The position numbers and the translations under genes are program-made. Shown one piece after another: positions 1,074 to 60,826 of a DNA stretch of 64,000 bases (positions are counted from its first letter, which is position 1; each line of letters opens with the position of its first letter). This DNA comes from a gamma proteobacterium symbiont of Stewartia floridana (lineage in GTDB: Bacteria; Pseudomonadota; Gammaproteobacteria; Chromatiales; Chromatiaceae), in assembly GCA_003676145.1 (NCBI GenBank), contig NAUB01000023.1:186001-250000 (forward strand). Direction: 5' to 3'. The notes under the pieces are model-generated. The model saw nothing but the letters and a program-made list of their open reading frames with translations. It was not told the DNA's origin and searched no databases.

Positions 1074-1769
1074 ATGCTTAAAGGACTTCCTATACATTTT
1101 TCAAAACTCTCTTTCATTATCGGACTAAGCCTGTGGTGCAGCGTCGCATCCTCAGCCATTCTCTCTCCTGGCAGCAGCATCACGCTTAGTGGCACAACAT
1201 CCACCATCGAGCCGGATCTCGCAGGCACGATTATTCATGAAAACCTGATTGGATTTGAAGTCACAGATCCCAGTGGCGCCACACTGCTAACCGGCAACTA
1301 CCTGGATAGAGTGGTCAGGTCCAGCAATACCAATCAGCTTATCTTTTCAGGACGTATCCAGGACCTGGCCGTCACCAGCGAAAACAGTCTTGGGATCTAT
1401 GATTGGTTGGTAACAGGATTCAGCGGCTATCTGACCGATGTGGATTATCGCAGCGATGACATAGGTGATTTGGCTCCTGATCAGGCAACCAGATTGAATG
1501 ATGGCAACGATATCCTGCTCGATTTTCCCACAGAGTTGGAGCCACCCGAGTCCAGCCTGTTCTCATCGATTGCTACCGATGCGGCTCTATTTGACCTGTC
1601 CGGCAGCGCTTTTTTTGGCATCGAGGACTTCGTCAATGACACGGGTTATCTGCTGGAGCTCAACGGTATCGCTGCCCCCTCCCCGGTTCCTCTGCCCGCT
1701 GCGTTCTGGCTGTTCGGTTCGGCAATGATCGGTCTGATCGGATTTCAGAAACAATGCCGTAACGAGTGA
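1074..1769 (+). CDS. VPLPA-CTERM sorting-domain secreted protein
   Basis: This is a 231-residue exported protein. It has an N-terminal signal peptide (hydrophobic residues about 8-26, ending near SSA) and an uncharacterised, Ser/Asp-rich central region. The C-terminal sorting segment is [17 protein letters not shown], followed by a basic tail (QKQCRNE). That tripartite end (VPLPA motif, transmembrane helix, basic residues) is the signature of the VPLPA variant of the PEP-CTERM/exosortase system. Such proteins are cleaved and probably modified by an exosortase on the way to the surface or extracellular matrix. The start is supported by AAGGAG seven bases upstream. The central domain is not recognised, so its surface role is unknown. 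No exosortase gene is in the window. Confidence 0.85.
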   Translation: MLKGLPIHFSKLSFIIGLSLWCSVASSAILSPGSSITLSGTTSTIEPDLAGTIIHENLIGFEVTDPSGATLLTGNYLDRVVRSSNTNQLIFSGRIQDLAVTSENSLGIYDWLVTGFSGYLTDVDYRSDDIGDLAPDQATRLNDGNDILLDFPTELEPPESSLFSSIATDAALFDLSGSAFFGIEDFVNDTGYLLELNGIAAPSPVPLPAAFWLFGSAMIGLIGFQKQCRNE

Positions 1770-1808: not shown

Positions 1809-3422
1809 TCACTTTTTCAACTTTTTCTTCAGCGCCTTTTTCGAGGTGCTTGCCTTCTTCCTGGTTACAGCCTTTTTCGCCAGCGACTTTTTCCCTGTTG
1901 GTTTCTTAGCTCTCTTTGCCGTGACCTTTTTGACCTGGCTGCCCTTGCTCTTTTTCAGCGAACTCTTTTTCTTGGCGGCCGTTGATTTTTTGCTTAGCGA
2001 TTTCCTGGCAGTCTTTGTCACCTGCTTTTTCACAGTTTTCTTTGCGGCTGGCTTCTTCTTAACCAGCTTTTTTCTACTCCTTGTCTTCGCTGCCTGAAGC
2101 GGCTTTTTCACAACCTTCTTCTTTGATGGCAGCGCTTTTTTACGGGTTACCTTGGATTTGGCTTTCTTAGCGGTGTTTACAGAGGTTCTGGTTTTTGCAC
2201 TGACCTTCTTTTTCGACAGGGTTGTCGGTTTACCCTTCTTGGCAACCGATTTTTTCACAACCTTAGCCTTTGAGGGGCTCTTGGTTGTCACCTTTTTCTT
2301 TGTTTGGGTGGTCTTTTTACGGCTTACTACAGGCTTACTTCGCTTGCTGGCTGATTTTTTGACAACTTTTGCCTTGGTTTTAGCCTTACTGCTGAGTTTT
2401 TTCTTCTTCTTAACCTGAGCCGGCTTTTCAGATGAGACTTTGGCCCGCTTCACCGCCGGCTTGGCACTTTGCTTGGATTTACGCTTCGGTTTGCTCGCTT
2501 CGGCCTTTTTTGTCTTGCTCGGCCTGGTAGGCTTCTGCGGGGGCTTTTTTGAAGCTTTGGCCGCTTTTGCGGCGCTCTTTTTTGAAGGCTGTTTGGATGG
2601 GCGCTTGGCAGATTTCAGCGCTTCGCTCGCGCGCTTCTCATGCTTGCCCTGGGCTACCTCCGCGGAGTCACCCCCTGACTTTGTCTCAGCCTGCGTCGCG
2701 GCCTTGGAACCTGATCTCTTTCCAGACCCGGCAACCGCTTTGTTCGCCCTGGCTGAAATTGCCCCTGTGTCACTCTCGGCATCTTCGATCGCCTGCATCA
2801 GATGCCCGAAAACCGTCTCAAGGCTTCCATTGCCATCCACCCGGACCAACCGGTCGCTTTTTTCATAATGTGTGATGAGTGGCGCAATCAGATGATCGAA
2901 AACGTGAATCCGGCTGCTGACTGTCTCCTCGTTGTCATCTGAGCGCTGGTGCAGTCGGCCACCGCAGGTATCGCAGACTCCATCGACTATGGGTGGATTG
3001 CGGTAGATATTGTAGAGCTGACCGCAGCTACGACAGGTGCGCCTGCCGACCAGGCGCTCCATCAGATGGTCATTATCGATATCGATCAATAACACCAGAT
3101 CCAGTGGCTGGCTGATCTCCTGCAAAAGCTCATCCAGAGTCAGTGCCTGTAACAGATTTCTGGGAAATCCGTCGAGAATGAAGCCATCCGCCATGGCTGG
3201 AAGCAGCAGTTGCTCACGTATCAGCCCAAGAATGATATCTTCCGTTACAACCCGACCCGCATCCTGCAGCGCCTTCACCTCCAGGCCCAACTCGCTCTCT
3301 TCAGCGATCGCCTGCTTGAGCAGATCACCCGTGGTAACGATGGCAAGAGCAAGCTTTTCTGCCAACAGAGCGGACTGGGTTCTCTTACCGGCCCCAGGCG
3401 CCCCGAGTATCACGATACGCAT
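1809..3422 (-). CDS. adk: Adenylate kinase fused to a long Lys/Ala/Ser-rich histone H1-like tail
   Basis: Residues 1-~215 are a complete adenylate kinase (ATP + AMP = 2 ADP): the P-loop is GAPGAGKRTQ, TGDLL follows, LDGFPR binds AMP, and the LID has a four-Cys zinc knuckle (CRSCG...CDTCG) followed by RSDDNEETV. The usual GKGT of the P-loop is GKRT here. From about residue 220 to 537 the protein is low complexity, made almost only of Lys, Ala, Ser, Thr, Arg, Pro and Val in KK/AKK/KKS clusters. This resembles AlgP or histone H1-like bacterial C-terminal domains. Ordinary adenylate kinases have about 215 residues. The tail should be disordered, strongly basic and nucleic-acid binding. The fusion is in one uninterrupted frame. 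The start has AAGGA just upstream. Kinase identity is secure; the purpose of the tail is unknown. Confidence 0.93.
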   Translation of the reverse strand: MRIVILGAPGAGKRTQSALLAEKLALAIVTTGDLLKQAIAEESELGLEVKALQDAGRVVTEDIILGLIREQLLLPAMADGFILDGFPRNLLQALTLDELLQEISQPLDLVLLIDIDNDHLMERLVGRRTCRSCGQLYNIYRNPPIVDGVCDTCGGRLHQRSDDNEETVSSRIHVFDHLIAPLITHYEKSDRLVRVDGNGSLETVFGHLMQAIEDAESDTGAISARANKAVAGSGKRSGSKAATQAETKSGGDSAEVAQGKHEKRASEALKSAKRPSKQPSKKSAAKAAKASKKPPQKPTRPSKTKKAEASKPKRKSKQSAKPAVKRAKVSSEKPAQVKKKKKLSSKAKTKAKVVKKSASKRSKPVVSRKKTTQTKKKVTTKSPSKAKVVKKSVAKKGKPTTLSKKKVSAKTRTSVNTAKKAKSKVTRKKALPSKKKVVKKPLQAAKTRSRKKLVKKKPAAKKTVKKQVTKTARKSLSKKSTAAKKKSSLKKSKGSQVKKVTAKRAKKPTGKKSLAKKAVTRKKASTSKKALKKKLKK

Positions 3423-5920: not shown

Positions 5921-7969
5921 GTGAATACAGAACTGATCTTTGCCCTGGCCTGTGCCGCAGCAGCACTGGCCTACGGCTTCATATCCGTGAAGTGGATTCT
6001 CGCGCAGCCGGAAGGCGATGATAAAATGCGTGAGATCGCCGGTGCGGTACAGGAGGGTGCTCAAGCCTATTTGAACCGCCAGTACACGGCGATCGGCTTT
6101 GTCGGTATCGTGGTTTTGGTGGTGATCTACTTCGGTCTGGATAGTGCCACCGCCATCGGATTTGCGATTGGCGCCATCTTCTCCGGTCTGGCGGGCTATA
6201 TCGGCATGAACATCTCGGTTCGCGCCAACCTGCGTACCGCGGAAGCGGCCCACAACGGCATCAACGCCGCACTCCAGGTCGCCTTCCGTGGCGGTGCCAT
6301 CACCGGCCTGCTGGTGGTTGGCCTGGCGTTGCTGGGTGTTGCCGGTTACTACTATGTTCTGAACATGATGGGTGTCTCAGACAGCCAGGCGCTGCACGCT
6401 CTGGTCGGTCTCGCCTTCGGTGGTTCGCTGATCTCCATTTTCGCCCGACTGGGTGGCGGCATCTTCACCAAGGGTGCGGATGTGGGCGCCGATATCGTCG
6501 GTAAGGTTGAAGCCGGCATCCCGGAGGATGATCCACGTAACCCTGCCGTCATCGCCGACAACGTGGGTGACAATGTGGGTGACTGTGCCGGTATGGCTGC
6601 GGATCTGTTCGAGACCTATGCGGTAACCGTGGTTGCCACCATGCTGCTCGGCAGTCTTCTGGTCACAGGCGTTGGCAACGAAGCCGTCATCTATCCGCTG
6701 GTACTGGGTGGTGTCTCCATCATCGCCTCTGTCATCGGTACCTACTTCGTCAGAGCCAAGGACAGCGATACCAACGTGATGCCTGCCCTCTACAAGGGTT
6801 TGATAGTCGCAGGTGTACTGGCCGCAGTGGCCTTCTACTATGTCACAGACTATATGATGGGCAGTGTGGTGCTGACCACAGGTGATACCACGGTATCCGA
6901 TCCGGTCATGGCGCTCTTCGGCTCTGCCATGATCGGCCTGGTTTTGACCGCTGCCATGGTGGTCATCACCGAGTACTACACCTCCACCGAGTACAACCCG
7001 GTGCGCTACATTGCGGAAGCCTCCACCACCGGTGACGGCACCAATGTCATCGCCGGCCTGGGTATTTCGATGAAAGCCACCGCCGCCCCGGTACTGGTGA
7101 TCTGCGCGGCCATCTGGGGTGCCTATGATATGGCCGGCCTCTACGGTATCGCCGTGGCAGCCACCTCGATGCTCTCCATGACCGGCATCATCGTCGCCCT
7201 CGATGCCTACGGCCCGATCACCGACAACGCCGGTGGCATCGCCGAGATGGCCGAGCTGGACGAGAAGATCCGTAACATCACCGATCCGCTGGATGCGGTG
7301 GGCAATACCACCAAAGCGGTCACCAAAGGCTATGCCATCGGCTCCGCCGGTCTGGCTGCTCTGGTGCTGTTTGCTGACTACACCCACAGCCTGGAGAGCC
7401 ATACAGGTACCGCGATCAGCTTCGACCTCTCCAATCACATGGTCCTGATCGGCCTGTTGATCGGCGGTCTGGTGCCGTTCCTGTTCGGCGCCATGGCGAT
7501 GGAAGCCGTGGGGCGTGCGGCAGGTGGTATCGTCAACGAGGTACGTCGTCAGTTTCGTGAGAAACCGGGCATCATGGACCACAGTGAAAAACCGGATTAC
7601 GGCAAGGCTGTGGACATGCTGACCAAAGCCGCGATCAAGGAGATGATCATCCCTTCACTGCTGCCGATTGCGGTACCCGTGCTGGTCGGTCTGTTCCTCG
7701 GCGCGCAAGCCCTGGGTGGTCTGCTGATCGGTACCATTGTCACCGGCCTGTTCGTGGCCATCTCGATGACCGCTGGCGGCGGTGCCTGGGACAATGCGAA
7801 AAAGTACATCGAAGATGGTAACTTCGGTGGTAAAGGGTCTGATGCCCATAAGGCAGCTGTCACCGGTGACACTGTCGGCGACCCCTACAAAGACACCGCT
7901 GGTCCTGCGATCAATCCGTTGATCAAGATCATCAACATCGTCGCCCTGTTGATTGTGCCGATTATCTAA
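5921..7969 (+). CDS. hppA: Membrane-bound proton-translocating pyrophosphatase, K+-independent type
   Basis: This 682-residue integral membrane protein has about 16 hydrophobic helices and hydrolyses PPi to pump H+. The PPi/Mg-binding loop [31 protein letters not shown] is present around residues 180-215, as are the downstream [19 protein letters not shown] and the C-terminal [20 protein letters not shown]. The GNTTKA motif carries Lys where K+-dependent enzymes carry Ala, which by family knowledge predicts a K+-independent H+ pump. The start is a GTG at 5921 with CAGGAGGA seven bases upstream. It sits between pfp and ppa and has its own terminator. H+ and not Na+ coupling is inferred from subfamily only. 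Confidence 0.96.
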
Positions 7970-7992
7970 CAGAGCACAGCGACAAACCTTCA

Positions 7993-8018
7993 AGGGGAGC
8001 CTCGGCTCCCCTTTTTTA
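7993..8018 (+). terminator. Rho-independent terminator after hppA
   Basis: AGGGGAGC-CTCG-GCTCCCCT is followed directly by TTTTT. It lies about 25 bases after the hppA stop codon. Confidence 0.92.
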
Positions 8019-8365
8019 TGGCGCAAGACCATTTTGATATTAGGGTTTTGAATCAAATCCTTCACGCAGACCGATCCAGTCCGGATTAGTCAAGCCCATC
8101 TTATTGATAATCAATGGATTTTCGAGTTCGCTCCAGAAATGGTAACGATCTCATTCCAGGCACCAAACCACACCAGGCAGGGCATTACAACCAACCCCTC
8201 AGCCTTGCCAGGATAATCCATGCGGCAATACGACCCACCCGTCGAGCCAACCGGCAGGCTTCTACTGGACACCCGCTCTGGTAATCCGTACTCTTCACCT
8301 CTCACACTCCACCGGCCCACCGGCTGGATTCGATCACCGCTGTTTTTCACTGCAAGGTAAGACAA
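8019..8365. other. Intergenic region upstream of ppa
   Basis: About 350 bp without a supported gene. An 84-codon frame on the minus strand (8111-8365) begins at the base before the ppa start codon and is rejected for lack of a ribosome binding site and recognisable sequence. The region probably holds the ppa promoter, but no clear -35/-10 pair was identified. Confidence 0.4.
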
Positions 8366-8914
8366 ATGAACCTAGACCGTGTCTCTTCAGGAAAGAGTAT
8401 TCCTGACGAAATCAACGTCATTATTGAAATCCCCTCGAACGCCGACCCTGTCAAGTATGAAGTGGACAAGGAGACCGGTGCGATGTTCGTCGACCGTATC
8501 CTGCGCACCGCCATGCACTACCCGGCCAACTACGGTTACATCCCCCATACCTTGTCAGACGATGGAGATCCCTGTGATGTCATGGTACCCACGGCGTTTC
8601 CTCTGATTCCCGGTTCCGTGATCCGTTGTCGACCTGTAGCGGTACTGAAAATGACCGACGAATCCGGTGACGACGCCAAGGTGGTCGCAGTGCCTGCGGA
8701 CGATGTCTCGAGCCGCTGGACCCATGTAAAATCCTACGAAGACATGCCGGAAGAGCTGATGGAGCGAATTGCCCATTTCTTCGAACACTACAAAGACCTC
8801 GATGAGGGCAAATGGGTTCGTGTCTCCGGTTGGGAAGGGGCTGAAGCGGCCAAACAAGAGGTCAGCAACTCAGTTAAGATGTTCCAGGATGCACCGGAAA
8901 AACCAAACTTTTAA
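8366..8914 (+). CDS. ppa: Soluble inorganic pyrophosphatase (family I)
   Basis: This 182-residue cytoplasmic Mg2+ enzyme hydrolyses PPi to two Pi. The family I signature [10 protein letters not shown] lies at about residues 65-75, the N-terminal substrate loop [19 protein letters not shown] includes the usual Lys/Glu/Tyr residues, and [20 protein letters not shown] is typical. Length fits bacterial hexameric enzymes. It is the third pyrophosphate gene in a row (pfp, hppA, ppa), all on the same strand but separated by terminators. Having a soluble PPase beside a PPi-using PFK implies that PPi level is balanced between energy conservation and disposal. Identity is secure. Confidence 0.95.
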
Positions 8915-11657: not shown

Positions 11658-12824
11658 ATGAAAGTCAAAAAAATAACCCAAGCCATGATTCTGCTCATAA
11701 CCAGTGGCGCCTTGAGTATTCCTCAAGTCCACGCACAAATGAGTCAGAACAATATGTATGGTATGGGGGGCATGAGCGGGATGTCCGGCATGGGTGGTAT
11801 GGGCGGCATGTCCGGTATGGGTGGTATGAGCGGGATGTCCGGCATGGGTGGTATGAGCGGCATGTCCGGTATGGGTGGCATGAGCGGCATGTCCGGCATG
11901 GGTGGTATGAGCGGCATGTCCGGTATGGGTGGTATGAGCGGCATGTCCGGTATGGGTGGTATGAGCGGTATGTCCGGCATGGGTGGTATGAGCGGCATGT
12001 CCGGCATGGGGGGCATGAGCGGCATGTCCGGCATGGGGGGCATGAGCGGGATGTCCGGCATGGGTGGCATGAGCGGGATGTCCGGCATGGGTGGCATGAG
12101 CGGGATGTCCGGCATGGGTGGAACGTATGGCACTTACCGTGTAACACCTCAAGGAATTCAACTCTATCCAACTGGTATGAGCGGCATGTCCGGCATGGGC
12201 GGAATGAGTGGAATGTCCGGTATGGGTGGCATGAGTGGAATGTCCGGCATGGGCGGTATGAGTGGGATGTCCGGCATGGGCGGGATGTCCGGCATGGGCG
12301 GTATGTCCGGCATGGGCGGCATGAGTGGAATGGGCGGCATGGGTGGCATGAGTGGAATGTCCGGCATGGGCGGGATGTCCGGCATGGGCGGGATGTCCGG
12401 CATGGGTGGCATGAGTGGAATGTCCGGTATGGGCGGCATGAGCGGGATGTCCGGCATGGGCGGTATGAGCGGGATGTCCGGCATGGGCGGTATGTCCGGC
12501 ATGGGCGGCATGAGTGGAATGTCCGGCATGGGCGGCATGAGCGGAATGTCCGGCATGGGCGGCATGAGTGGAATGTCCGGCATGGGCGGAATGTCCGGCA
12601 TGGGCGGAATGTCCGGCATGGGCGGAATGTCCGGCATGGGCGGTATGTCCGGCATGGGCGGCATGAACGGGATGTCCGGCATGGGCGGTATGTCCGGCAT
12701 GAACGGGATGTCCGGCATGAGCGGTATGTCCGGTATGGGGGGCATGTCTGGGATGAGTGGTATGGCCGGAATGGACGGTATGGGCGGCCAGCAGAGCCGT
12801 GCCTGGTACCAATTCTGGCGATAA
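11658..12824 (+). CDS. Secreted Met/Gly-rich tandem-repeat protein (MSGMGG repeats)
   Basis: This 388-residue protein begins with a Sec signal peptide (MKVKKITQAMILLITSGALS, cleavage near VHAQ). The rest is almost entirely repeats of MSGMSGMGG and MSGMGG, so about every third residue is Met. The repeats are broken once by a non-repetitive spacer, TYGTYRVTPQGIQLYP (residues 156-171), and end with GQQSRAWYQFWR. No Cys or His is present in the repeat region. The ATG at 11658 has GAGGGAGA nine bases upstream. The protein should be exported. The spacer motif recurs twice in the C-terminal tail of the diheme cytochrome encoded at 18306, tying this gene to that operon. I recognise no family. Possible roles are an oxidant-scavenging Met sink, metal binding, or an extracellular structural polymer. 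Confidence 0.8.
   Translation: MKVKKITQAMILLITSGALSIPQVHAQMSQNNMYGMGGMSGMSGMGGMGGMSGMGGMSGMSGMGGMSGMSGMGGMSGMSGMGGMSGMSGMGGMSGMSGMGGMSGMSGMGGMSGMSGMGGMSGMSGMGGMSGMSGMGGMSGMSGMGGMSGMSGMGGTYGTYRVTPQGIQLYPTGMSGMSGMGGMSGMSGMGGMSGMSGMGGMSGMSGMGGMSGMGGMSGMGGMSGMGGMGGMSGMSGMGGMSGMGGMSGMGGMSGMSGMGGMSGMSGMGGMSGMSGMGGMSGMGGMSGMSGMGGMSGMSGMGGMSGMSGMGGMSGMGGMSGMGGMSGMGGMSGMGGMNGMSGMGGMSGMNGMSGMSGMSGMGGMSGMSGMAGMDGMGGQQSRAWYQFWR
11763..12780 (+). repeat. Tandem array of 18- and 27-nt units
   Basis: The DNA is built from degenerate copies of a 27-nt unit encoding MSGMSGMGG and an 18-nt unit encoding MSGMGG, interrupted at about 12120-12176 by the unique spacer. Codon differences (GGC/GGT/GGG, AGC/AGT/TCC) are scattered, so the array has diverged and is not a recent expansion. 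The composition keeps several frames on both strands open for nearly 400 codons, which explains the long spurious ORFs here. Confidence 0.95.
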
Positions 12825-12860
12825 GCAAGGGTGCTCCTCACCGAGCTATTGAAACAACAT

Positions 12861-12895
12861 GGCTGCCATCGGATTCACGGTGGCAGCCTATTCAT
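12861..12895 (+). terminator. Terminator after the Met/Gly repeat gene
   Basis: GGCTGCCA (12861-12868) pairs perfectly with TGGCAGCC (12881-12888), followed by TATTCATT. It lies about 37 bases after the stop codon. It also overlaps the longest possible start of the next open frame, which supports the later start at 12946 for the regulator gene. Confidence 0.75.
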
Positions 12896-12945
12896 TGCGC
12901 CAGCAATATGCAGTGCAATCCTGTGGCGGCCCTGGCGACAACAGA

Positions 12946-13719
12946 ATGTTAGATAGCGTAAGAGAGAAGCAAAAAAACGAGACTCAATGCGAAGTCTGCC
13001 CGATACGCAGCATGGCTTTGTTCAAGCGTGTTCCAGAGGATCAACTGGGAAAAACACAGAATCACCGCTCTTCTCAGATGACCTACGAGGCAAAATCGCA
13101 CCTCTACCATGAAGGGGAAACGAGCGCTCATGTCTACACGCTTTTCAGTGGTTGTGTGAAATTATATAAGACCTTAAAAAACGGCAAGATCCAGGGACTG
13201 CGGTTTGCCACGCCAGGAGATTTTTTAGGCTTCCAGGGCGACCTGGAAGGGGCAATGCATCATGGCGCAGTCGCCCTCACGGATATCACAGTGTGTGCTT
13301 TTCCAAAGGATGAGGTTTACAGAATGATCTGTGAGCATAAGGATATCGCATCCGAGTTAATCATGAAAAACGCCAAGATGATGGCTTTCTGTCAGGAGCA
13401 TTTAGCCAGTACAGGAGCCAAAAGCGCGGTAGAGAGCATCGCTTTTACACTGATTGAATTCAATCATCGCCTTAAACAGCTCAACAAGACCAACAAATTA
13501 TCCGATGATAACGATCCGATTGACTTACCGATCACTCAGGAAGATCTTGCAGATGCCGTTGGCTTGACAGCTATTCATGTGAACAGAACACTCAAACAAC
13601 TCAAACAGGATAACCTGATTGCTTGCGGCAAAGGAAAGATACAGGTTTTGAATGAAGAAAAACTCAAGTTGCTCGCCCACTTTGATCCGAATTGCCTGCA
13701 TGTAAGCAATATTCTTTAA
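12946..13719 (+). CDS. Crp/Fnr-family transcriptional regulator with an incomplete FNR cysteine motif
   Basis: This 257-residue regulator starts at the ATG at 12946; upstream codons of the open frame overlap a terminator. It has an N-terminal Cys pair (TQCEVCPIRS), a cyclic-nucleotide-binding-like beta-roll (about residues 40-150) with a further Cys in FSGCVKLYK, a long dimerisation helix, and a winged helix-turn-helix with ITQEDLADAVGLTAIHVNRTLKQL. FNR proteins bind 4Fe-4S through C-x2-C-x5-C plus a central Cys; here the third Cys of the N-terminal motif is absent. It may sense redox with fewer Cys ligands or by another cofactor. It lies directly upstream of the cytochrome/molybdoenzyme operon, whose leader contains a Crp/Fnr-format palindrome, and is the likely regulator. 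Confidence 0.88.
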   Translation: MLDSVREKQKNETQCEVCPIRSMALFKRVPEDQLGKTQNHRSSQMTYEAKSHLYHEGETSAHVYTLFSGCVKLYKTLKNGKIQGLRFATPGDFLGFQGDLEGAMHHGAVALTDITVCAFPKDEVYRMICEHKDIASELIMKNAKMMAFCQEHLASTGAKSAVESIAFTLIEFNHRLKQLNKTNKLSDDNDPIDLPITQEDLADAVGLTAIHVNRTLKQLKQDNLIACGKGKIQVLNEEKLKLLAHFDPNCLHVSNIL

Positions 13720-13742
13720 TCAGTTTCAATTTCAACCTGTCT

Positions 13743-13769
13743 CTTAGGGCCTGTTAACACTAATCCAAT
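13743..13769 (+). repeat. Dispersed repeat, copy A
   Basis: CTTAGGGCC-TG-TTAACACTAATCCAAT, 23 bases after a stop codon. Close copies occur at 32495-32521 and 46939-46961; see the finding on this repeat. Confidence 0.7.
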
Positions 13770-13895
13770 ACGCCCTGCTGTTATTTTCAACTCAATTTTT
13801 GTGCCCTTCGCTTGATAAATCTTATTGGCTAAAAAAGCCAACCAGAAAAACGCTTTTGTAAGTGTGGTTATTTTGTCATCAGATTTTCGAAAATC

Positions 13896-13911
13896 ATTAA
13901 CATAAGTTAAT
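13896..13911. promoter_or_regulatory. Candidate Crp/Fnr-type operator (ATTAAC-N4-GTTAAT)
   Basis: ATTAAC-ATAA-GTTAAT is a perfect dyad with 6-base arms and a 4-base centre. This is the geometry of Crp/Fnr sites (FNR: TTGAT-N4-ATCAA), with different half-site bases. It lies between the Crp/Fnr-family gene and the operon starting at 14151, about 240 bases from the start codon. Binding is inferred from format and position only. Confidence 0.5.
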
Positions 13912-14150
13912 TACAACCTCCCCACTGAACAATAGCATTCACTCGTGTCAGAAAAATCTCACCCATGAGAATCTCACAAAAATAAACTGACCAATCGTTT
14001 CACAAGCACTAATTACAGATTCAACAGCAGTTTGGTTGTCTAGCAATAGAGTTACTTTCGGATGTTGAAGGTTATTGCGTTAGCGGCAAACCAGCACAAT
14101 AACGAAATCACTGTTACTCATAGATTGTATGAGTAGCTGAGGAGATTGCT

Positions 14151-14933
14151 ATGAAACAAAGCCAAACGGCACTCATATTACGGATTATGAGTTTGATGCT
14201 TTGTGTTACACAGATTCAGGCAAAGGATGCAGAAGACCCAGAACATGACTATCTTGGCTCCCGCTGGGACCCAATTCACTTCAAACCTGCCATAGATCAG
14301 GCCAGCGATGAGCAGTGCCTCAAATGCCACCAGGAGATCCTGAAAAGAACGACTCGAAGCGAATCGCCAGCAGGAATCAAATCAGAAGAGAGTATTGCCT
14401 GGTATCAGACCAACCAGAACTATAGCGGCCCCCAAGAGACATTTCATCGTCGCCATCTGGTTACCCCTGAAGCCAGACGCTTCATGCAATTCAAATGCAT
14501 CACCTGTCACCAGGGACATGACCCAAAAGATGAAGTTTCGGGCAGCTCGGAAACAGCCCAATCCGGGCTGATTTTACGCAAGAGTGTTGATCCCGATATC
14601 TGCCTGATGTGCCACGGGAGTTTCGATTACAAAGTGATGTCAGGTCTATCCGGTGATTGGCCTGAAGTCGCCGCTAAGTTTGAAAATGATTGTGTTACTT
14701 GTCACAAGGAGTATCGGACTGTCCGGCATAAATTGAACTTTCTAAATGAATATGAAATTGAAAATTTGCAAGCCAATGAGAGCGACCTTTGTTATGGCTG
14801 TCATGGGGGGCGCGCCTGGTATGCCATTCCCTACCCCTATGTAAGACGTCCCTGGTTGCAAAGAATGCCGGGGGCACTACCTGAGTGGGCAAAAAACCGT
14901 CCCACAAAATACGATGCTCGCTTCACGAATTAG
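14151..14933 (+). CDS. Periplasmic pentaheme c-type cytochrome
   Basis: This 260-residue exported protein has a signal peptide (residues 1-24, ending IQA) and five CxxCH haem-c sites: CLKCH (56-60), CITCH (116-120), CLMCH (151-155), CVTCH (181-185) and CYGCH (214-218). Several further His residues (HRRH, H193) could be distal ligands. It resembles the small multihaem electron-transfer cytochromes of the NapC/NrfB/MtrA type in general layout, but I cannot name the family. It is the first gene of an apparent operon with the DmsA-like catalytic subunit, the Fe-S subunit and a diheme cytochrome. It probably passes electrons between the quinone pool or periplasmic carriers and the molybdoenzyme. 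No membrane anchor other than the signal peptide is seen. Confidence 0.87.
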   Translation: MKQSQTALILRIMSLMLCVTQIQAKDAEDPEHDYLGSRWDPIHFKPAIDQASDEQCLKCHQEILKRTTRSESPAGIKSEESIAWYQTNQNYSGPQETFHRRHLVTPEARRFMQFKCITCHQGHDPKDEVSGSSETAQSGLILRKSVDPDICLMCHGSFDYKVMSGLSGDWPEVAAKFENDCVTCHKEYRTVRHKLNFLNEYEIENLQANESDLCYGCHGGRAWYAIPYPYVRRPWLQRMPGALPEWAKNRPTKYDARFTN

Positions 14934-14978
14934 TCTCGACAACCAACATTTGCTGTGACAAAAACCGGAACGGTGACG

Positions 14979-17567
14979 ATGATAAAGAAACAGGTACTTA
15001 GCAAGCTGATCAACTCATCCCTGAATCAGCAACGCAGAAATTTTCTCAAGGCATCAGCAACTGGTTTTGCAACATTGGCTGCTGGCGGGCTTGTCAAAAT
15101 TAACAAAGCAAAAGCACAAGCGTATCAACCCTATCCTACCGACAACCAATTGGAAACGGTTGTAACCAGTTGTGCGCATAACTGCGGTTCACGTCATATG
15201 CTGGTAGCGCATAAACAGAATGATGTGATTGTGCGGCTCTCTTCGGATGATGGACGCTATCAGCGAGACGGTTGCTACGGTAAGGATACGGATGAAGAAC
15301 CTCAGCTCAGGGCCTGTCTTCGCGGCAGGGCCTACCGGGAACGCATCTACTGCGCCGAAAGATTACTCTATCCAATGATGCGTGTCGGTGAAAGAGGATC
15401 AGGAAAATTCAAACGTGTCTCCTGGGATGAAGCGCTGGATTTCATTGCCAATAAACTGATCGAAATAAAAGCTCAATATGGATCTCAGGCGATACTAGAT
15501 CAAAGTTATGCTGGCGCCTCTTATGGTGTTTTACATAAATCAGATCAGATCGAAGGTTTACAGGGGCGCTTTCTGGGAATGTTTGCCTGTCGCACAAGCT
15601 GCTGGTCCGTTCCCTCCTATCAGGGCACTACCACCAGTTCACGTTGGACCTTTGGAACCATCGAAGACGGCAACGAAGATGATACTTTCGCCCATTCGAA
15701 ACTCATGATCATGTGGGGCTGGAACCCTGCGTATACATTTCATGGCGGCAATACCATCTATTACATGCGTAAGGCGAAACAGAACGGCTGTAAGTTCGTC
15801 GTTATCGATCCCCTATACACTGATACAGCAGCCACTTTCGATGCCTGGTGGATTCCAATCAAGCCCAATACCGATGCCGCAATGATGGCGGGCATGGCGC
15901 ATTACATCTTCACCAACAATCTGCAGGATCAGGAATTCATTGATAAGTTTGTGCAGGGCATGGATGCAGGCACCATGCCTGAGTGGTCGAAAAATTCCCC
16001 CAACGGCACGGAGAATTTCAAGGACTATATCCTGGGCAAATATGATGGCCAGCCAAAAACACCCGAGTGGGCTGAAACGATCTGTGGCGTCAAGGCAGCA
16101 GACATCAGAAAGCTTGCTGACATGTATGCCAAAACCAAACCAGCCGCACTCAAAGCGTGCTGGGGGCCGGGACGCAACGACTACGGTGAACAGTATAATC
16201 GTATGGCGGCAGCACTACAGGCGATGACCGGTAATATCGGCGTACTCGGCGGCTGCGCCGAAGGTGTGGGCAAGGCCTGGCATGCTGAAGGGGTTGCCCA
16301 CCCATACGACAGTTATTCCAATATCTGGTTCTCATCGATCAAATCGGACCGTTGGGCTCATATCGTCAACAACTATCCCAACGTAACCCGTCAGGAAGCG
16401 GGACTCTGGCCACGTGATGACAATCTTGATGGAGTGATTCCCAATATTCGGGGGATATTCTATCAAGGATCAAACTGGTTCAACCAACTCACCAATATCA
16501 ATGCAGAGATCGAAGCCATCAATAAATTGGACCTGGTGGTTTGCCTCGATCAGACGATTACAACATCCGGCCTCTATTCCGATGTATTACTGCCAATCTG
16601 CACACACTTCGAAAGGCATGATGTCGCCCTACCCTGGTACAAAGGCCACTACTATATACACAGGCCTAAAGTGATCGAACCATTGGGTGAAAGCAAATCT
16701 GACTTCCAGGTGTTTACGGAACTTGCCTATCGCCTGGGCAACATGACCGGAATGGGCGATAAGTTCGGCCAGGCTTACAACCCGAAAGCCACACGCGACT
16801 ATTGGAACAATCCAGATCCTGTCGACGAGGACTATCTGCGTACCTGGTGGGAAGAGCGTGTGATGCATCATCAACATGTTGAGATGCCTTGGGTCGAGTT
16901 CAAAAAACACGGCGTCTACAAAGTCAAACTTGAGCGTCCGCATATCGCCTTTCAGGATCAGGTGGAGCTTGGTCTACCATTTCAAACCCCATCGGGAAAA
17001 ATTGAGATTCTGTGTGACGAATTGGCCCGCATCAATGACTGGACAAAAACACGTTACGGTTATCATATACCTTCAATTCCAAAGTGGATAGAACCTTTCG
17101 AATCCCTCAATCACCCAACCAAAACAAAAAAGTATCCCTTTCATTTGATCACACCGCATCCGCGACATAGAACACATTCGATTTTCAATAACAGCGCCAT
17201 CCTGAGAGAGACCTATGATCAGGAGATCACAATCAATGCCAGTGACGCGAAGAAGCTTGGCATCTCTACAGGGGACAAGATTGAAGTCTGGAACGATCGT
17301 GGCAGATTGGTGGTGCCGGCTTATGTGACACAAAGATGCTTACCCGGCGTCGTCGCGATCCCCGAAGGCGCATGGATCGACCTTGACAGCAAAGGCATAG
17401 ATCGCGCCGGCAATCCCAACATGCTCAGTGCAGACACACCCAGTCCTGCAGGATCATTTGCCTACAACACCATACTCGTCAACATACGTAAAACCACACT
17501 ACAACATCGTGCGGGCTGGGATGAAACATCCGTATCCAGAACCCATGTCTTTGGCCGCGACATCTAG
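14979..17567 (+). CDS. DmsA-like molybdopterin oxidoreductase, catalytic subunit (Tat-exported)
   Basis: This 862-residue protein is a complete DMSO-reductase-family enzyme. The N terminus has a Tat signal (QRRNFLKASATG). The following stretch, SCAHNCGSRHML...RACLRGRAYRERIY...RLLYPMMRVGERG, parallels E. coli DmsA closely, but the third cluster ligand position (CGSRC in DmsA) is His. Other family blocks are VVIDPLYTDTAA, the Mo-bis-PGD domains, PSGKIEI and the C-terminal domain with SADTPSP. Alignment by eye puts a Ser (VPSYQG) at the Mo-ligand position used by DmsA. Start: the ATG at 14979 is preferred over a GTG at 14955. Substrate is unknown; S-oxides or N-oxides are family possibilities. 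It lacks a DmsC-like membrane anchor and a DmsD/TorD chaperone gene nearby. Confidence 0.88.
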   Translation: MIKKQVLSKLINSSLNQQRRNFLKASATGFATLAAGGLVKINKAKAQAYQPYPTDNQLETVVTSCAHNCGSRHMLVAHKQNDVIVRLSSDDGRYQRDGCYGKDTDEEPQLRACLRGRAYRERIYCAERLLYPMMRVGERGSGKFKRVSWDEALDFIANKLIEIKAQYGSQAILDQSYAGASYGVLHKSDQIEGLQGRFLGMFACRTSCWSVPSYQGTTTSSRWTFGTIEDGNEDDTFAHSKLMIMWGWNPAYTFHGGNTIYYMRKAKQNGCKFVVIDPLYTDTAATFDAWWIPIKPNTDAAMMAGMAHYIFTNNLQDQEFIDKFVQGMDAGTMPEWSKNSPNGTENFKDYILGKYDGQPKTPEWAETICGVKAADIRKLADMYAKTKPAALKACWGPGRNDYGEQYNRMAAALQAMTGNIGVLGGCAEGVGKAWHAEGVAHPYDSYSNIWFSSIKSDRWAHIVNNYPNVTRQEAGLWPRDDNLDGVIPNIRGIFYQGSNWFNQLTNINAEIEAINKLDLVVCLDQTITTSGLYSDVLLPICTHFERHDVALPWYKGHYYIHRPKVIEPLGESKSDFQVFTELAYRLGNMTGMGDKFGQAYNPKATRDYWNNPDPVDEDYLRTWWEERVMHHQHVEMPWVEFKKHGVYKVKLERPHIAFQDQVELGLPFQTPSGKIEILCDELARINDWTKTRYGYHIPSIPKWIEPFESLNHPTKTKKYPFHLITPHPRHRTHSIFNNSAILRETYDQEITINASDAKKLGISTGDKIEVWNDRGRLVVPAYVTQRCLPGVVAIPEGAWIDLDSKGIDRAGNPNMLSADTPSPAGSFAYNTILVNIRKTTLQHRAGWDETSVSRTHVFGRDI

Positions 17568-17590
17568 TTGACCAACAGGAATTCATCCAC

Positions 17591-18268
17591 ATGAAAAAGT
17601 CCCTGGATAAATCAAAAGTAAAAGCAGCGGTCAAACGGCGCAAGCAACAGGTCTACACGCCCGTTGACCCGCAACAACAACTTGGCTTCATACATCATAA
17701 TGTCGACTGTATCGGTTGCCGTGCCTGCGAGATTGCCTGTAAAGATAAAAACGGACTGGCACCAGGACCACGCTTCCGCAGAGTCAGCTACATCGAGGGT
17801 GGTGATTTTCCCGATGTTTATGCTTATAAAGTCAATATGTCGTGCAACCACTGCGCACAACCTGCCTGTCTGCCAACCTGTCCAACAGGTGCTATTTTCA
17901 AACGTCAACAAGACGGCATTGTCGATATTGACTCTTCACTCTGTATCGGTTGCAGACGTTGTGAAGCCGCCTGTCCATACGGCGCACCTCAATTTGATGC
18001 CAGCGATAATCTGGTAAAAAAATGCAACATGTGCGTTGACGAGATCGATGCCGGACGCAAACCTTATTGCGTGATGGCCTGCATGATGCGGGTATTGGAT
18101 ATCGGCCCAATCGATCAACTCGATAGCGGTAATTTAGATACCACAGCGATTGGGCCAAATGACAAGCCTGTCAGACAGGTCAAGAACATGGCTGATCCAA
18201 AACTGACCAACCCTTCGATTCGTTTCATTGCCCACAGCAAAGGCAACGTGGATAACGATAACTCTTAA
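17591..18268 (+). CDS. DmsB-like ferredoxin subunit with four 4Fe-4S clusters
   Basis: This 225-residue protein has four Cys clusters in the DmsB/NrfC/PhsB pattern: CIGCRACEIACKD, CNHCAQPACLPTCPTGA, CIGCRRCEAACPYGAPQ and CNMCVDEIDAGRKPYCVMAC. The following MRVLDIGPIDQL is close to the DmsB segment ALDFGPIDEL. It should dock on the DmsA-like subunit and relay electrons to the cytochromes. It has no signal peptide and is presumably carried across the membrane with the Tat-exported partner, as in DmsAB. It starts 23 bases after the catalytic gene. The N terminus is unusually basic (KKSLDKSKVKAAVKRRKQQ), a short extension compared with DmsB. Confidence 0.93.
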   Translation: MKKSLDKSKVKAAVKRRKQQVYTPVDPQQQLGFIHHNVDCIGCRACEIACKDKNGLAPGPRFRRVSYIEGGDFPDVYAYKVNMSCNHCAQPACLPTCPTGAIFKRQQDGIVDIDSSLCIGCRRCEAACPYGAPQFDASDNLVKKCNMCVDEIDAGRKPYCVMACMMRVLDIGPIDQLDSGNLDTTAIGPNDKPVRQVKNMADPKLTNPSIRFIAHSKGNVDNDNS

Positions 18269-18305
18269 CGTAACAACATTGAATCAATTACCCAGGAGTC
18301 AATGA

Positions 18306-19145
18306 ATGCTGCTTAAAACTGTATTGATACTCTTACTGCTACTACCCGCTCTTTGTCAGGCTTTGAATATCGAGAATGGCAAAAGGATCAACAGAAGCTG
18401 TGCACTCTGTCACGGTGACTATGGTCAGGGGACACCGGGCACCATGTCTCCAAGATTGGCCGGCTTACCCGCCGACTACCTGGAAAAAGAACTCAAATAC
18501 TATCGTTCCGGTGAGCGACGTTACGCTCCCATGGTTATCGCATCCTCTATCAAAAAAATGACTGATGAAGATATCAGGGATATTTCAGAATACCTGGCCG
18601 GGGTCAATTTACGCAATCTCAACCTGCCCAAAATTCCAGAATACCCCAATGGCAAACCCAACAAAGGCAAAGAGATATTCAACGATGAATGCAAATCCTG
18701 CCACAAGAAAACAGGCTTGGGTAAACCTAAAAAGGACATCCCACCGGTAGCCGGTCAATACGGTAGTTATATCTTCAGCCAAATCAAGAAATTTCAGGAC
18801 AAGCAACGCCACCATGACGATGACCCTGAGGACGATACATTCGATGACTACGCTGACACTGAGATCGATGACATTATCGCCTATGTCACAACGCTACCCG
18901 CACATCCACCTCTACCTGCATCAGAAGAGTTTTCGGTAGGCATGTCGGACGTAATGGACAGTATGGGCATGGTTGGTATGGTACAGGGAGGTGACCAGAG
19001 TGATCTCAATATCTCCGGGCAATTCAGAGTAACACCCTCAGGCGACATTGTTCTCAAGCCTCTCAACCAGGATATGCGCTCGATCGCCGGCCTATCCGGT
19101 AACTTCAGAATCACTCCAACAGGCATACTGTTCATGCCCAATTAA
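18306..19145 (+). CDS. Diheme c4-like cytochrome with a C-terminal FRVTPxG tail
   Basis: This 279-residue exported protein has a signal peptide (residues 1-19) and two class I cytochrome c domains with CALCH (32-36) and CKSCH (129-133), resembling cytochrome c4/c553 tandem domains. After an acidic linker the last ~70 residues form an unusual tail. It has a Met/Gly-rich piece (VGMSDVMDSMGMVGMVQGG) and two copies of a motif, GQFRVTPSGDIVLKP (238-252) and GNFRITPTGILFMP (265-278). The same motif is the only non-repetitive interruption in the Met/Gly protein encoded at 11658. The cytochrome therefore probably interacts or co-assembles with that protein. AGGAGTCA precedes the start. Electron exchange with the pentaheme cytochrome or terminal oxidases is inferred. 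Confidence 0.85.
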   Translation: MLLKTVLILLLLLPALCQALNIENGKRINRSCALCHGDYGQGTPGTMSPRLAGLPADYLEKELKYYRSGERRYAPMVIASSIKKMTDEDIRDISEYLAGVNLRNLNLPKIPEYPNGKPNKGKEIFNDECKSCHKKTGLGKPKKDIPPVAGQYGSYIFSQIKKFQDKQRHHDDDPEDDTFDDYADTEIDDIIAYVTTLPAHPPLPASEEFSVGMSDVMDSMGMVGMVQGGDQSDLNISGQFRVTPSGDIVLKPLNQDMRSIAGLSGNFRITPTGILFMPN

Positions 19146-19241
19146 CTTTAAAAGACTCTAACAGTATGCGTTTATCGATTGGAAACCATTTTGCAAGTGA
19201 AGAGACCTGCCTCTATTTTCATCGGCCCAGGAGAGACGACA

Positions 19242-19751
19242 ATGAAATCATTCAATAAATATAATCTCTGCTTTTTAGCTTTATTACTCCTTTCACTTGA
19301 TCTGACCGCGGGCGAAGACCCTGAGGTAGAGATTGCCGATATCTATCAATCCGTCATAAAAATGAGTCTTGCCAGTGGTGTCAGCCTGGCTGATGCTGGT
19401 GAAGCCATGACATCCAAAGCGGCTGAATTGAACCTACGCCTTGTGGGACGCCAGAAGGTGCATGAAGCGGTACGAGCCCGTGGATTGAAGTCACCGCATC
19501 TGGAGATTCTGCAATTCTGTGACCCGGAGGATGCGGTACAGATGGTGGTCAGTGACCCTCTCTATTCAGCCTATATGCCATGCCGTATATCTTTGGTGGA
19601 GGACCAGAACGGCAAGGCCTGGCTCTATATGCTCAACTTGGACATGTTGATCAACAGCGCCTCCCTCCCCCCTGAATTGCAGACCATCGCAATTCGAGTC
19701 AATCAAGCGATGCTTGCGGTGATGACGGCGGGTGCAACCGGAGAGTTCTAG
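19242..19751 (+). CDS. DUF302-domain exported protein
   Basis: This 169-residue protein starts at the ATG at 19242, which has CAGGAGAGACGAC upstream; the frame is open further upstream without a good start. A signal peptide (about residues 1-23, ending LTAG) is followed by one DUF302 domain. Typical features are LEILQFCDPEDAVQMVVSDPLYSAYMPCRISLVED and a C-terminal helix pair around an NLDMLI stretch. DUF302 proteins are small alpha/beta proteins of unknown biochemical function, frequently near sulfur-oxidation or redox genes. It follows the diheme cytochrome by about 95 bp on the same strand and probably belongs to the operon. Two Cys (C in QFCDPED and YMPCRIS) could matter for redox chemistry, but this is speculative. 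Confidence 0.8.
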   Translation: MKSFNKYNLCFLALLLLSLDLTAGEDPEVEIADIYQSVIKMSLASGVSLADAGEAMTSKAAELNLRLVGRQKVHEAVRARGLKSPHLEILQFCDPEDAVQMVVSDPLYSAYMPCRISLVEDQNGKAWLYMLNLDMLINSASLPPELQTIAIRVNQAMLAVMTAGATGEF

Positions 19752-19835
19752 TAATGAAACAGTGGCCAAACGGTTAGCACTCAGCCTACATACTGGACCA
19801 ATGACTGGAAACCCTGAATAGATTACGGATCACTC

Positions 19836-20291
19836 ATGGAACACTGGATCAAAATTATCGATAAACAGTTAGCCAAAAAAAAAGAGTGGTCTGGATTGAT
19901 CGTCGCCTTTCCTGAATATCGCCCAGATCTACTCAAAACCCTGGCGAATGAACTGAACTATTCCTTTTACGACTATCGCGAGGCCGAGATGGCGCCGCTT
20001 GGCATGAAGGCCGCCGAGCTGACCCTTGCTGAACTCGACCGTACTCTATACAAAACGATCCAGGCAGGGCCCACGGTACTGCACAATATTGAATCGTTAC
20101 TGCTCTCCAAACAGAATCAGTCGGTGATAACCTGGCTAACGGAATTCAGTACCAAACCCTGGGGACATAATGTGGTGCTACCGGTTGTCATTCTGGCCGA
20201 CGTGGCGCTCAATCTACAGCCGGATGCCGTCGTCGATCTCACTCAAACCACATTTCCTGAACAGTCACTGATCTCTCGCCTGATGCACTGA
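19836..20291 (+). CDS. Hypothetical protein at the end of the cytochrome operon
   Basis: This is a 151-residue soluble protein with no signal peptide and no Cys. It has alternating hydrophobic strands (WSGLIVAFPEY, PTVLHNIESLLL, NVVLPVVILADVALN) and amphipathic helices. The pattern suggests an alpha/beta Rossmann or degenerate P-loop fold, but there is no Walker A motif and I do not recognise the family. It lies about 85 bp after the DUF302 gene in the same orientation and is the last gene before a strong hairpin region and the convergent polA. Being cytoplasmic, it could act in maturation or regulation of the exported complex, since no TorD/DmsD-type chaperone gene is present. That is only a positional inference. 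Confidence 0.6.
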   Translation: MEHWIKIIDKQLAKKKEWSGLIVAFPEYRPDLLKTLANELNYSFYDYREAEMAPLGMKAAELTLAELDRTLYKTIQAGPTVLHNIESLLLSKQNQSVITWLTEFSTKPWGHNVVLPVVILADVALNLQPDAVVDLTQTTFPEQSLISRLMH

Positions 20292-60061: not shown

Positions 60062-60826
60062 TCACATGGCACAAAACGTCCCATCAAACAGATGACGGGA
60101 GAAAAACCGGCCCAAATCGAATTGCGGATCCGTTTGGCTCGTCGCTTCGAAGGCCTCACCGATGGTTGCCGAGGCAAGCAGCCTTTCGACGAACTCGAAT
60201 TCACCCGGGGTGACAACTCTTACCTGAACCTCGTTGTCCGGCCTCACGACGATCAACCGGCAGGCTCCCTCATCCAGCGAGATCAGCTCATCCTGATCAT
60301 CGGACTGATTGACAGACCAGATCCGATGGACGGGAAAATCGGAGGCCAGTAGCTGCAACGAAGGGTGGAGACGAAGCTGAAGCCCGGCAAACGCCTCTTC
60401 AGACAGATTCTGCAGTTGATCCGGCTGCAGTGGGTGTGCATCCGCCGCGTGATAGGCTGCAGTCCAGGCAAACTCCAGACGGGCCACATCACTCAGGTAG
60501 GGCAACTCCGACAGCTCGGGTATGGCCTGCAAAAAGTCGGCGAACAGGTCACCATACAACAGCAGGGTGCGATCCCTGGGGGGGTGTTGCCGCACATAAG
60601 CGGTTGCCAGCATACGAAAGGCTTTTTCTCCCACCAGCCGTTTCACTACCGGGAACATGTCCGCCAGCGCATCCCCATTCAGCACGATGAAGTTATTCCG
60701 GTAGACCTGGAATCTCTGCAGTGCCAGATCGTCATCCTGCACCATCGCCAACAGAGCGCCATCCGGCGCCTCGGCGGTTCTCAATGCATCACAAAAGCTC
60801 TTTTGCAGCTCAGCCAGTAACGACAT
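60062..60826 (-). CDS. bufC: BufC/HvfC-family bufferin maturation partner (DUF2063)
   Basis: This 254-residue protein has the DUF2063/HvfC N-terminal domain (LLAELQKSFCDALRTAEAPDG, LQRFQVYRNNFIVLNGDALADMFPVVKRLVGEKAFRMLATAYVRQHPPRDRTLLLYGDLFADFLQAIPELSELPYLSDVARLEFAWTAAYHA). This domain is the usual partner of MNIO (DUF692) enzymes and probably presents the precursor peptide to BufB. The family is also annotated as putative DNA-binding, which is probably misleading here. The start overlaps the end of bufB by 17 bases, showing translational coupling. Confidence 0.9.
   Translation of the reverse strand: MSLLAELQKSFCDALRTAEAPDGALLAMVQDDDLALQRFQVYRNNFIVLNGDALADMFPVVKRLVGEKAFRMLATAYVRQHPPRDRTLLLYGDLFADFLQAIPELSELPYLSDVARLEFAWTAAYHAADAHPLQPDQLQNLSEEAFAGLQLRLHPSLQLLASDFPVHRIWSVNQSDDQDELISLDEGACRLIVVRPDNEVQVRVVTPGEFEFVERLLASATIGEAFEATSQTDPQFDLGRFFSRHLFDGTFCAM

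Follow-up and report, generated by a model that had tools for sequence, protein, structure and literature searches.

The window, a stretch of 64,000 nucleotides from contig NAUB01000023.1 of a gammaproteobacterial symbiont of Stewartia floridana, carries on its forward strand a block of genes in which a Met-repeat protein is joined to a DmsA-like molybdenum enzyme and c-type cytochromes. All the genes that a first-pass annotation had listed for this block are present:

11658..12824, + strand: Met-repeat protein, secreted, 388 aa, organized as (M-x-G)41 - module - (M-x-G)68 (open reading frame)
12123..12176, + strand: Met-free module YGTYRVTPQGIQLYP, internal to the repeat protein (read from the sequence)
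12861..12888, + strand: terminator-like hairpin with a weak T tail, directly 3' of the repeat gene (consensus match only)
12859..13719, + strand: Crp/Fnr-type regulator (PF00027 and PF13545), whose true start may lie further in
14151..14933, + strand: pentaheme c-type cytochrome (five CxxCH motifs, signal-peptide-like start)
14955..17567, + strand: DmsA-like Mo catalytic subunit (RRxFLK signal of Tat type, recognised by eye; Ser as Mo ligand; FS0 positions filled by Cys-Cys-His-Cys)
17591..18268, + strand: DmsB-like four-cluster ferredoxin subunit (TIGR02951 match)
18306..19145, + strand: diheme c-type cytochrome (profile and motif reading)
18936..19142, + strand: tail of the diheme cytochrome, a Met-rich linker and two modules, FRVTPSGDIVLKP and FRITPTGILFMP, which resemble the module of the Met-repeat protein
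19239..19751, + strand: DUF302 protein with an apparent signal peptide (profile match)
19836..20291, + strand: protein of 151 aa, family unassigned, which matches neither Pfam nor NCBIfam

The repeat protein had been described as a secreted protein with Met at about every third residue, and this is borne out by its translation, in which 112 of the 388 residues are Met and 109 M-x-G triplets form two unbroken runs of 41 and 68, separated by a single Met-free module. The M-x-x-M spacing holds across both runs, and the N-terminus resembles a signal peptide by eye. Ser is encoded by both TCN (38) and AGY (30) codons and Gly by all four of its codons, so the DNA varies beneath a peptide pattern that stays constant. 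Matches of the protein to collagen-adhesin and phage tail-fibre profiles are due to Gly at every third position and were rejected as homology. Among related repeat proteins read as complete open reading frames, the number of Met residues ranges from 14 to 122, and in most of those read Ser, Gly, Asn and Gln interchange beside Met. Some alpha- and betaproteobacterial repeat proteins (L121, L122, L125 and L141) are short and interrupted by Gln/Lys/Glu units, and so fit less well with the idea of a pure methionine ladder. For a paralogous repeat protein linked to MsrA, described below, AlphaFold2 predicts the module alone as a fairly confident beta-hairpin and gives the repeats a pLDDT below 50.

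The DmsA-like protein reaches 607.9 bits against TIGR02166, below the cut-off of 777.7, and its DmsB-like partner 191.5 bits against TIGR02951, under the cut-off of 214.1. Its family forms a distinct clade with 36-37% identity to Escherichia coli DmsA. In all 85 aligned rows, which hold 84 distinct family proteins, Ser occupies the position of the Mo ligand, as in E. coli DmsA, YnfF, TorA and BisC, and His occupies the third FS0 Cys position, where E. coli DmsA and YnfF have Cys. The solved structures nearest to the enzyme are DMSO and TMAO reductases. Judged by its sequence, the enzyme belongs to the lineage of Ser-liganded S- and N-oxide reductases, in which DmsA-type enzymes reduce DMSO and, in Shewanella, also iodate.

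No dmsC, torD or DmsF-like gene was found among the window genes scanned, and cytochrome genes stand at the place expected for DmsC. The absence of a DmsC-type anchor, claimed earlier, holds for these genes; the parallel claim of a missing TorD/DmsD chaperone is right for the window copy only. The same genome holds another copy of the operon (contig C13, L009), of more typical make-up; it too has a Met-repeat protein, and it includes a TorD/DmsD-type gene (PF02613; 75 bits against a TorD model with a cut-off of 132), so the organism is not without such a chaperone. The second DmsA-like protein scores 624.5 bits, also below the TIGR02166 cut-off, and the next best match in the genome reaches 160 bits. 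The pentaheme cytochrome of the C13 copy matches the DmsE model weakly (33 bits, cut-off 192).

The module-bearing tail of the diheme cytochrome, absent from the first description of the block, is present with its Met-rich linker in all four window-type diheme cytochromes read. A module suspected in an upstream protein of 281 aa was rejected, as it consists of loosely similar stretches and the strict module pattern matches only 2 of 21 relatives; the same pattern also matches 1 of 41 relatives of the regulator. Across the loci compared, the only matches to the Crp/Fnr-type regulator lie next to operons of the window type (L091, L116 and L219), and relatives of the 151-aa protein are found downstream of the operon in 12 of 80. 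A conserved secreted protein of 94 aa gives a poor AlphaFold2 model (mean pLDDT 64.5). A simple scan for FNR/CRP boxes upstream of the window genes returned one weak site, which overlaps the start of the pentaheme gene, and sigma-70-like sites are fewer than in shuffled sequences (8 vs 11.8). The typical operon has a sigma-54 promoter-like -24/-12 box in 27 of 38 cases, adjoined by a kinase with a CxxCH motif, and a sigma-54 activator gene is found at the canonical operon. The operon is widespread and its gene set not particular to the window, whose copy seems to be a derived paralog.

The operon was compared in 80 named loci from alpha-, beta- and gammaproteobacteria; the record titles mark many of these bacteria as sulfur oxidisers. 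A Met-repeat gene lies upstream of dmsA in 69 of all 80, and among the 39 loci whose upstream sequence extends for 2.5 kb or more, 36 have it directly before the pentaheme-DmsA-DmsB genes; as a control, the region 3' of dmsA holds such a gene in 0 of 74. In a sample of the order, the repeat is found in 59 of 63 genomes with a family DmsA and in 7 of 147 without it, and in 398 genomes drawn evenly across the phylum at least six repeat matches are found in 5 of 5 with a family DmsA and in none of the other 393; the thresholds, at least four matches for the order and at least six for the phylum, were both chosen after the counts had been seen. They were set because the pattern (MxG)x4 also matches GroEL-like tails (by eye) and other Gly/Met repeats, with 1-5 matches per genome, and a phylum threshold of four would make three more genomes (4, 4 and 5 matches) repeat-positive without a family DmsA. 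The order, phylum and named-locus counts overlap through shared assemblies (for example, G010:C23 is L072 and G312:C13 is L142). Of the seven genomes of the order with the repeat and no DmsA match, two (G033 and G043) have the canonical upstream genes, and their repeat gene runs into the contig end, while the reading of two others (G055 and G056) covered the repeat protein; G039, G082, G113 and G198 have a family DmsA and fewer than four pattern matches. Co-occurrence of MSGMGG-type proteins with the dmsA/cytochrome set, which the first-pass annotation had proposed as a check on its reading, is strongly supported by these three counts. The operon, for which no description was met in the literature searched, is widespread in free-living and animal-symbiotic sulfur oxidisers, including two tubeworm symbionts (L091 and L116).

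Of the 17 same-genus genomes with a close MsrA ortholog, 7 place a Met-repeat paralog, separate from dmsA, tail to tail with the gene for a lipoprotein-type MsrA/MsrAB, and in G201, of a different genus, MsrAB follows the whole operon. This link is local, since no MsrA/MsrB relatives were found in the 80 named loci or in the window, and in 10 of the 17 genomes the flanks of 1.5 kb that were read hold no repeat gene. MsrP is found in none of 22 same-genus genomes. A trade-off between MsrP and the operon was looked for and not found outside the genus: overall, MsrP is present in 24 of 63 genomes with a family DmsA and in 61 of 147 without it, and since many genomes outside the genus carry both, no general trade-off exists.

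With E. coli DmsABC and YnfEFGH the operon shares the catalytic and four-cluster ferredoxin subunits, the Tat signal, the Ser Mo ligand and, in its canonical form, a TorD/DmsD-type chaperone, but it differs in its separate clade, its below-cut-off scores, the change of the third FS0 Cys to His, the presence of cytochromes and a Met-repeat partner and, in the window, the lack of DmsC. DorA of Rhodobacter sphaeroides is a periplasmic enzyme of the DMSO-reductase family in which the Ser position aligns. To our knowledge, it has no FS0 cluster, ferredoxin subunit or dedicated Met-rich partner. DorA reduces protein-bound methionine sulfoxide (MetO) about as efficiently as free MetO, with a preference for the peptide G-M(O)-Q (PMC7402097), so the chemistry is possible, and for BisA of Campylobacter concisus a double role is reported, in the respiration of oxides and in the repair of MetO in the periplasm (PMC10653797). 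The dmsEFABGH operon of Shewanella oneidensis likewise has DmsAB without DmsC, a periplasmic c-type cytochrome and a TorD-like chaperone, and as described it lists no Met-repeat protein (PMC11302344); its DmsE-type cytochrome and outer-membrane DmsF were not seen here.

The closest parallels in idea are MrpX/YedY1-YedZ1 of Azospira suillum and BcrXQP of Brucella melitensis, in which a secreted Met-rich repeat protein also accompanies a Mo enzyme of MetO-reductase type, a role that we infer here from lineage. MrpX and BcrX are described as Met-rich HOCl sinks paired with MsrPQ-type reductases, and the systems are proposed to work as oxidant sinks whose reductase is fed from the respiratory chain (PMC8315932). 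The present operon has a DmsA-lineage enzyme instead of MsrP, multiheme cytochromes in place of MsrQ, and, in its typical form, a sigma-54-type box, which may set its control apart from the ECF sigma factor of the Brucella system; its repeat unit is the M-x-G triplet, against a repeat given as MXKDX for the protein of Brucella (PMC8315932). It is best read as similar to the Azospira system in idea and built from other parts.

The operon looks like a rechargeable shield against oxidants, and it probably encodes an envelope methionine-sulfoxide sink that is re-reduced by a cytochrome-fed DmsAB enzyme. The Met-x-Gly protein would be a sacrificial oxygen-atom trap, whose Met residues are converted in the cell to methionine sulfoxide by reactive oxidants, and the Tat-exported DmsAB-type reductase would remove the oxygen again. 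Electrons would flow to the enzyme through dedicated periplasmic c-type cytochromes, the pentaheme one throughout and the diheme one added in the window type, which would replace the quinol-oxidising DmsC. The Met-free beta-hairpin modules that the repeat protein and the diheme cytochrome have in common may keep the components in place by docking. The suggestion that MetO in the repeat protein is re-reduced by this enzyme had been made from the window alone; the repeat paralog beside MsrA/MsrAB and the conserved Ser ligand now lend it some independent support, and the substrate of the enzyme is still a matter of what we infer. A further, tentative reading, to which we give a modest chance, would make the repeat protein a solid-state, protein-bound terminal electron acceptor: oxidants of environmental or host origin would load oxygen onto a Met ladder, the cytochrome-fed DmsAB would respire this store, and detoxification and respiration would be one process. 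With triplets in a polyglycine-II-like or collagen-like geometry, all Met residues would line up along a single edge, to which the cytochromes and the enzyme would be docked by the hairpin modules.

Alternatively, the enzyme could work in respiration or as an electron sink, reducing a small S-oxide, an N-oxide or an oxyanion, DMSO or iodate for instance, with electrons from periplasmic cytochromes as in Shewanella DmsEFAB; the repeat protein would then be a scaffold for reductase and cytochromes and not a substrate. The DmsA lineage with its Ser ligand agrees with this, as do the delivery by cytochromes and the TorD-like chaperone without DmsC, known from Shewanella dmsEFABGH (PMC11302344), and the modules common to this kind of repeat protein and the diheme cytochrome would suit a scaffold; dmsAB of lucinid symbionts has also been read as a DMSO reductase that could serve at low oxygen (PMC11237559). 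A scaffold, however, has no need for Met near every third position while its Ser, Gly, Asn and Gln neighbours change freely, nor for a repeat paralog linked to MsrA/MsrAB away from dmsA, and we regard this reading as unlikely. It seems very unlikely that the repeat protein is a metal trap, with an M-x-x-M spacing fit for binding Cu(I), Ag(I) or Hg(II), and that the reductase has a separate job. The spacing is kept in both runs of the window protein, and Met-rich domains in certain copper proteins have been considered as Cu(I) ligands (PMC11840665), but no metal pump or chaperone appears among the recurring reference genes around the operon, whose neighbours are annotated in part. A metal trap would also leave unexplained why the repeat protein is linked so strictly to an enzyme of sulfoxide-reductase type, and why a repeat gene is linked to MsrA/MsrAB.

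A role for the repeat protein in the handling of elemental sulfur or polysulfide, such as that of a sulfur-globule coat, with an enzyme acting on sulfur compounds, is very unlikely too. Many hosts are sulfur oxidisers by record titles, the C13 operon is followed at a distance of about 6 kb by open reading frames that we take for dsrAB, and the L180 protein (genome G060, same order) has a Gly-rich GGPGFG region fused to MSGMSGMQG repeats, all of which would fit such a role. Other hosts, however, belong to groups such as Thiobacillus, Tepidiphilus and Rhodocyclaceae, for which we know of no sulfur-globule storage, and Ser is found in every family row, whereas the polysulfide and thiosulfate reductases of the DmsA superfamily have a Cys ligand.

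We know of few dedicated examples of methionine as a regenerable antioxidant. As a methionine-sulfoxide sink, the operon seems to reach the idea of the Azospira and Brucella systems by different means, with an enzyme family, a repeat, a route for electrons and a type of promoter unlike theirs. It bears on the genes of lucinid symbionts that have been called DMSO reductase and read as possible DMSO respiration (PMC11237559), as well as on the two tubeworm symbionts that carry the operon, and it raises the question of whether a protein may be the natural substrate of a DmsAB-type enzyme.

The Met-repeat protein, a secreted protein of M-x-G triplets, is encoded in the window operon by the following gene:

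11658-12824: Met-repeat protein gene; the product is secreted and has 388 residues, 112 of them Met

Of these Met residues, 109 fall within M-x-G triplets, which form unbroken runs of 41 and 68 units. The gene mixes its serine codons (38 TCN and 30 AGY) and uses four glycine codons, which argues that the peptide pattern is what is conserved. Genes for a Crp/Fnr-type regulator, a pentaheme cytochrome, DmsA-like and DmsB-like subunits, a diheme cytochrome, a DUF302 protein and a 151-residue protein without known family follow on its 3' side, and the window genes include no DmsC-type anchor. The host genome has 4.55 Mb. Elsewhere in the window, an adenylate-kinase-like ORF (1809-3422, minus strand; read by eye) carries a Lys/Ala/Ser-rich, histone H1-like tail of about 300 residues, two secreted proteins (1074-1769, plus strand; 44095-44898, minus strand) have, by eye, PEP-CTERM-like C-terminal sorting signals, and adjoining ORFs at 60062-61700 (minus strand) resemble a DUF2063/DUF692 pair, presumably of the bufferin (copper-binding peptide) type.

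A second, canonical copy of the operon is present on another contig of the same genome, C13 (locus L009), where the order is a 94-residue small secreted protein, Met-repeat protein, pentaheme cytochrome, DmsA, DmsB, TorD-like chaperone, Fe-S protein and thioredoxin-like/NHL protein. A divergent two-component pair, formed by a sigma-54 activator and a kinase, is located upstream. The predicted periplasmic sensor part of the kinase (L009 5937-7805, minus strand) contains, by eye, a CxxCH motif, and from its sequence this kinase may be a c-heme redox sensor. Two conserved envelope proteins accompany the canonical operon, the 94-residue protein (L009 9402-9686), with 17 invariant columns across 35 sequences, and an upstream protein of about 262-281 residues (7931-8776); neither the 94-residue nor the 281-residue protein matches any family in Pfam and NCBIfam. 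Ahead of the 94-residue gene, 27 of 38 loci (L009 and 37 named ones) carry a sigma-54 -24/-12 box that matches TGGCAC-N5-TTGCW in 10 or more of 11 positions; resampled sequence would give 0.66, and the opposite strand gives none. In 7 of the remaining 11, L009 included, the box scores 9 of 11.

In the scan of named genomes, the best 80 of 208 loci were retained, and by their record titles these belong to alpha-, beta- and gammaproteobacteria, including Thiodiazotropha, the source of many of the best matches, Sedimenticola, Thiolapillus, Thiobacillus, Hydrogenophilales, Thiothrix, Filomicrobium and Thermopetrobacter. One of the 80 loci, L090, lies on a contig titled Clostridia; its DmsA shares 89% identity with that of C13, and the label or the binning is probably wrong. 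Within the bounds set by contig ends, relatives of DmsB are found in all 80 loci, of the pentaheme cytochrome in 79 (the exception, L144, begins at dmsA), of TorD in 78, of the Fe-S protein in 63, of the 94-residue protein in 37 and of the sigma-54 regulator, above 400 bits, in 33. Five CxxCH motifs occur in 78 of the 81 pentaheme-relative ORFs of these loci. One named locus has about 2.4 kb of extra DNA between dmsA and dmsB (L145 5229-7675).

The Met repeat is closely linked to the DmsA-like enzyme encoded beside it. A repeat precedes dmsA in 69 of the 80 named loci, and in 36 of the 39 with at least 2.5 kb of upstream DNA; many of these loci are closely related and so do not amount to 39 independent events. 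As a control, none of the 74 loci whose sequence extends 2 kb or more past dmsA has a repeat there. The three loci without a full upstream repeat are L114, which retains a short MGGMSG remnant, L118 and L143. Of the 210 genomes of the order, 63 have this DmsA, and at least four matches of the (MxG)x4 pattern are found in 59 of these 63 versus 7 of the 147 without it (Fisher's p 4e-39, although these genomes are related to one another). An even draw of 398 genomes of the phylum contains five with this DmsA, including the window genome; pattern matches number 13 to 154 in exactly these five and at most five in any other genome (p 1.2e-11). Within the genus, the enzyme and the MSGMGG pattern occur in the identical 21 of 22 genomes, and the single genome without both has 2.6 Mb. 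Two other Met-repeat genes were noted: one lies off the dmsA contig, beside von Willebrand A-type-like and isocitrate-lyase-like ORFs read by eye (L213 5698-6120, minus strand, genome G046), and one encodes a secreted Gly-rich GGPGFG-repeat protein with C-terminal MSGMSGMQG repeats, which recalls sulfur globule proteins (L180 709-1821, plus strand, genome G060).

This DmsA forms a clade apart, beside E. coli DmsA and YnfF, in a tree with few E. coli rows and with TorA, BisC and YnfF on long branches. It is 36-37% identical to E. coli DmsA, and its score falls short of the DmsA family cut-off. All 85 aligned rows, which stand for 84 distinct proteins because that of L009 is entered twice, have Ser at the Mo ligand position, as do DmsA, YnfF, TorA and BisC, and all have His in place of Cys at the third ligand position of the Fe-S cluster FS0. 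Among solved structures, DMSO and TMAO reductases come closest, and this Ser aligns with theirs.

The window repeat protein contains a Met-free module, YGTYRVTPQGIQLYP, and related modules are found in the diheme cytochrome, whose C-terminus has a Met-rich linker and two such modules in all four window-type copies read (window, L219, L091 and L116). In the named loci, a strict module motif matches 44 of 117 Met-rich ORFs, a set that includes antisense and truncated frames, and 2 of 2 diheme cytochromes. By comparison, it matches 11 of the 5,020 remaining ORFs, 2 of the 21 that are related to the 281-residue protein and 1 of the 41 related to the regulator; it misses the window repeat protein's own module, which has one residue fewer after Gly. 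The four window-type enzymes cluster in the tree (support 93/72). Because the window-type operon lies immediately 3' of the canonical operon in L091 and L116, without a separate repeat gene, and occurs in only 4 of 22 genus genomes, it looks like a derived duplicate, with a repeat gene in front in both genus genomes fully read (G000 and G001).

The module subtype of the window protein, as YGTYKVTPQGVHLYP, also occurs in same-genus genomes in repeat genes distant from dmsA. These genes are tail to tail with MsrA or MsrAB, methionine sulfoxide (MetO) reductases whose N-terminus here resembles a lipoprotein signal, in 7 of 17 genomes having a close MsrA ortholog, and no repeat gene is present in the 1.5 kb MsrA flanks of the other 10. 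The window-type operon is found in 4 of these 10, including the window genome, and in none of the 7. AlphaFold2 predicts a beta-hairpin for the module of an MsrA-linked paralog and unstructured repeats. In a genome of another genus (G201), an entire canonical operon is followed by a DUF1223 gene and then by an MsrAB ortholog whose MsrA part is 69% identical; the window and the 80 named loci yielded no MsrA. The usual periplasmic MetO reductase that depends on Mo, MsrP, was detected in none of the 22 same-genus genomes, and across the order it occurs in 24 of 63 genomes with this DmsA versus 61 of 147 without.

A literature search, beyond whose reach most subscription papers and preprints lay, gave no recognised description of this operon. 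In lucinid symbionts, dmsAB near soxY-S1c and dsrAB have been named DMSO reductase genes, and the accessible portion of that paper does not mention a Met-repeat protein alongside them (PMC11237559). On C13, ORFs that by eye look like dsrAB are found some 6 kb past the last operon gene, so the two may be the same locus. The described Shewanella dmsEFABGH operon has a cytochrome but no DmsC (PMC11302344). DorA, an enzyme of the DMSO-reductase family, can reduce MetO on proteins (PMC7402097), and a dual role in respiration and MetO repair is reported for a Campylobacter BisA (PMC10653797). The sink idea is already known for MrpX/YedYZ and BcrXQP (PMC8315932), but the component parts differ in the present operon. 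The simplest account of this operon is a regenerable oxidant sink, in which oxidants would oxidise the Met repeat and DmsAB, with electrons from the cytochromes, would reduce the repeat sulfoxides; we infer the direction of the electrons, the DmsAB substrate and the docking.
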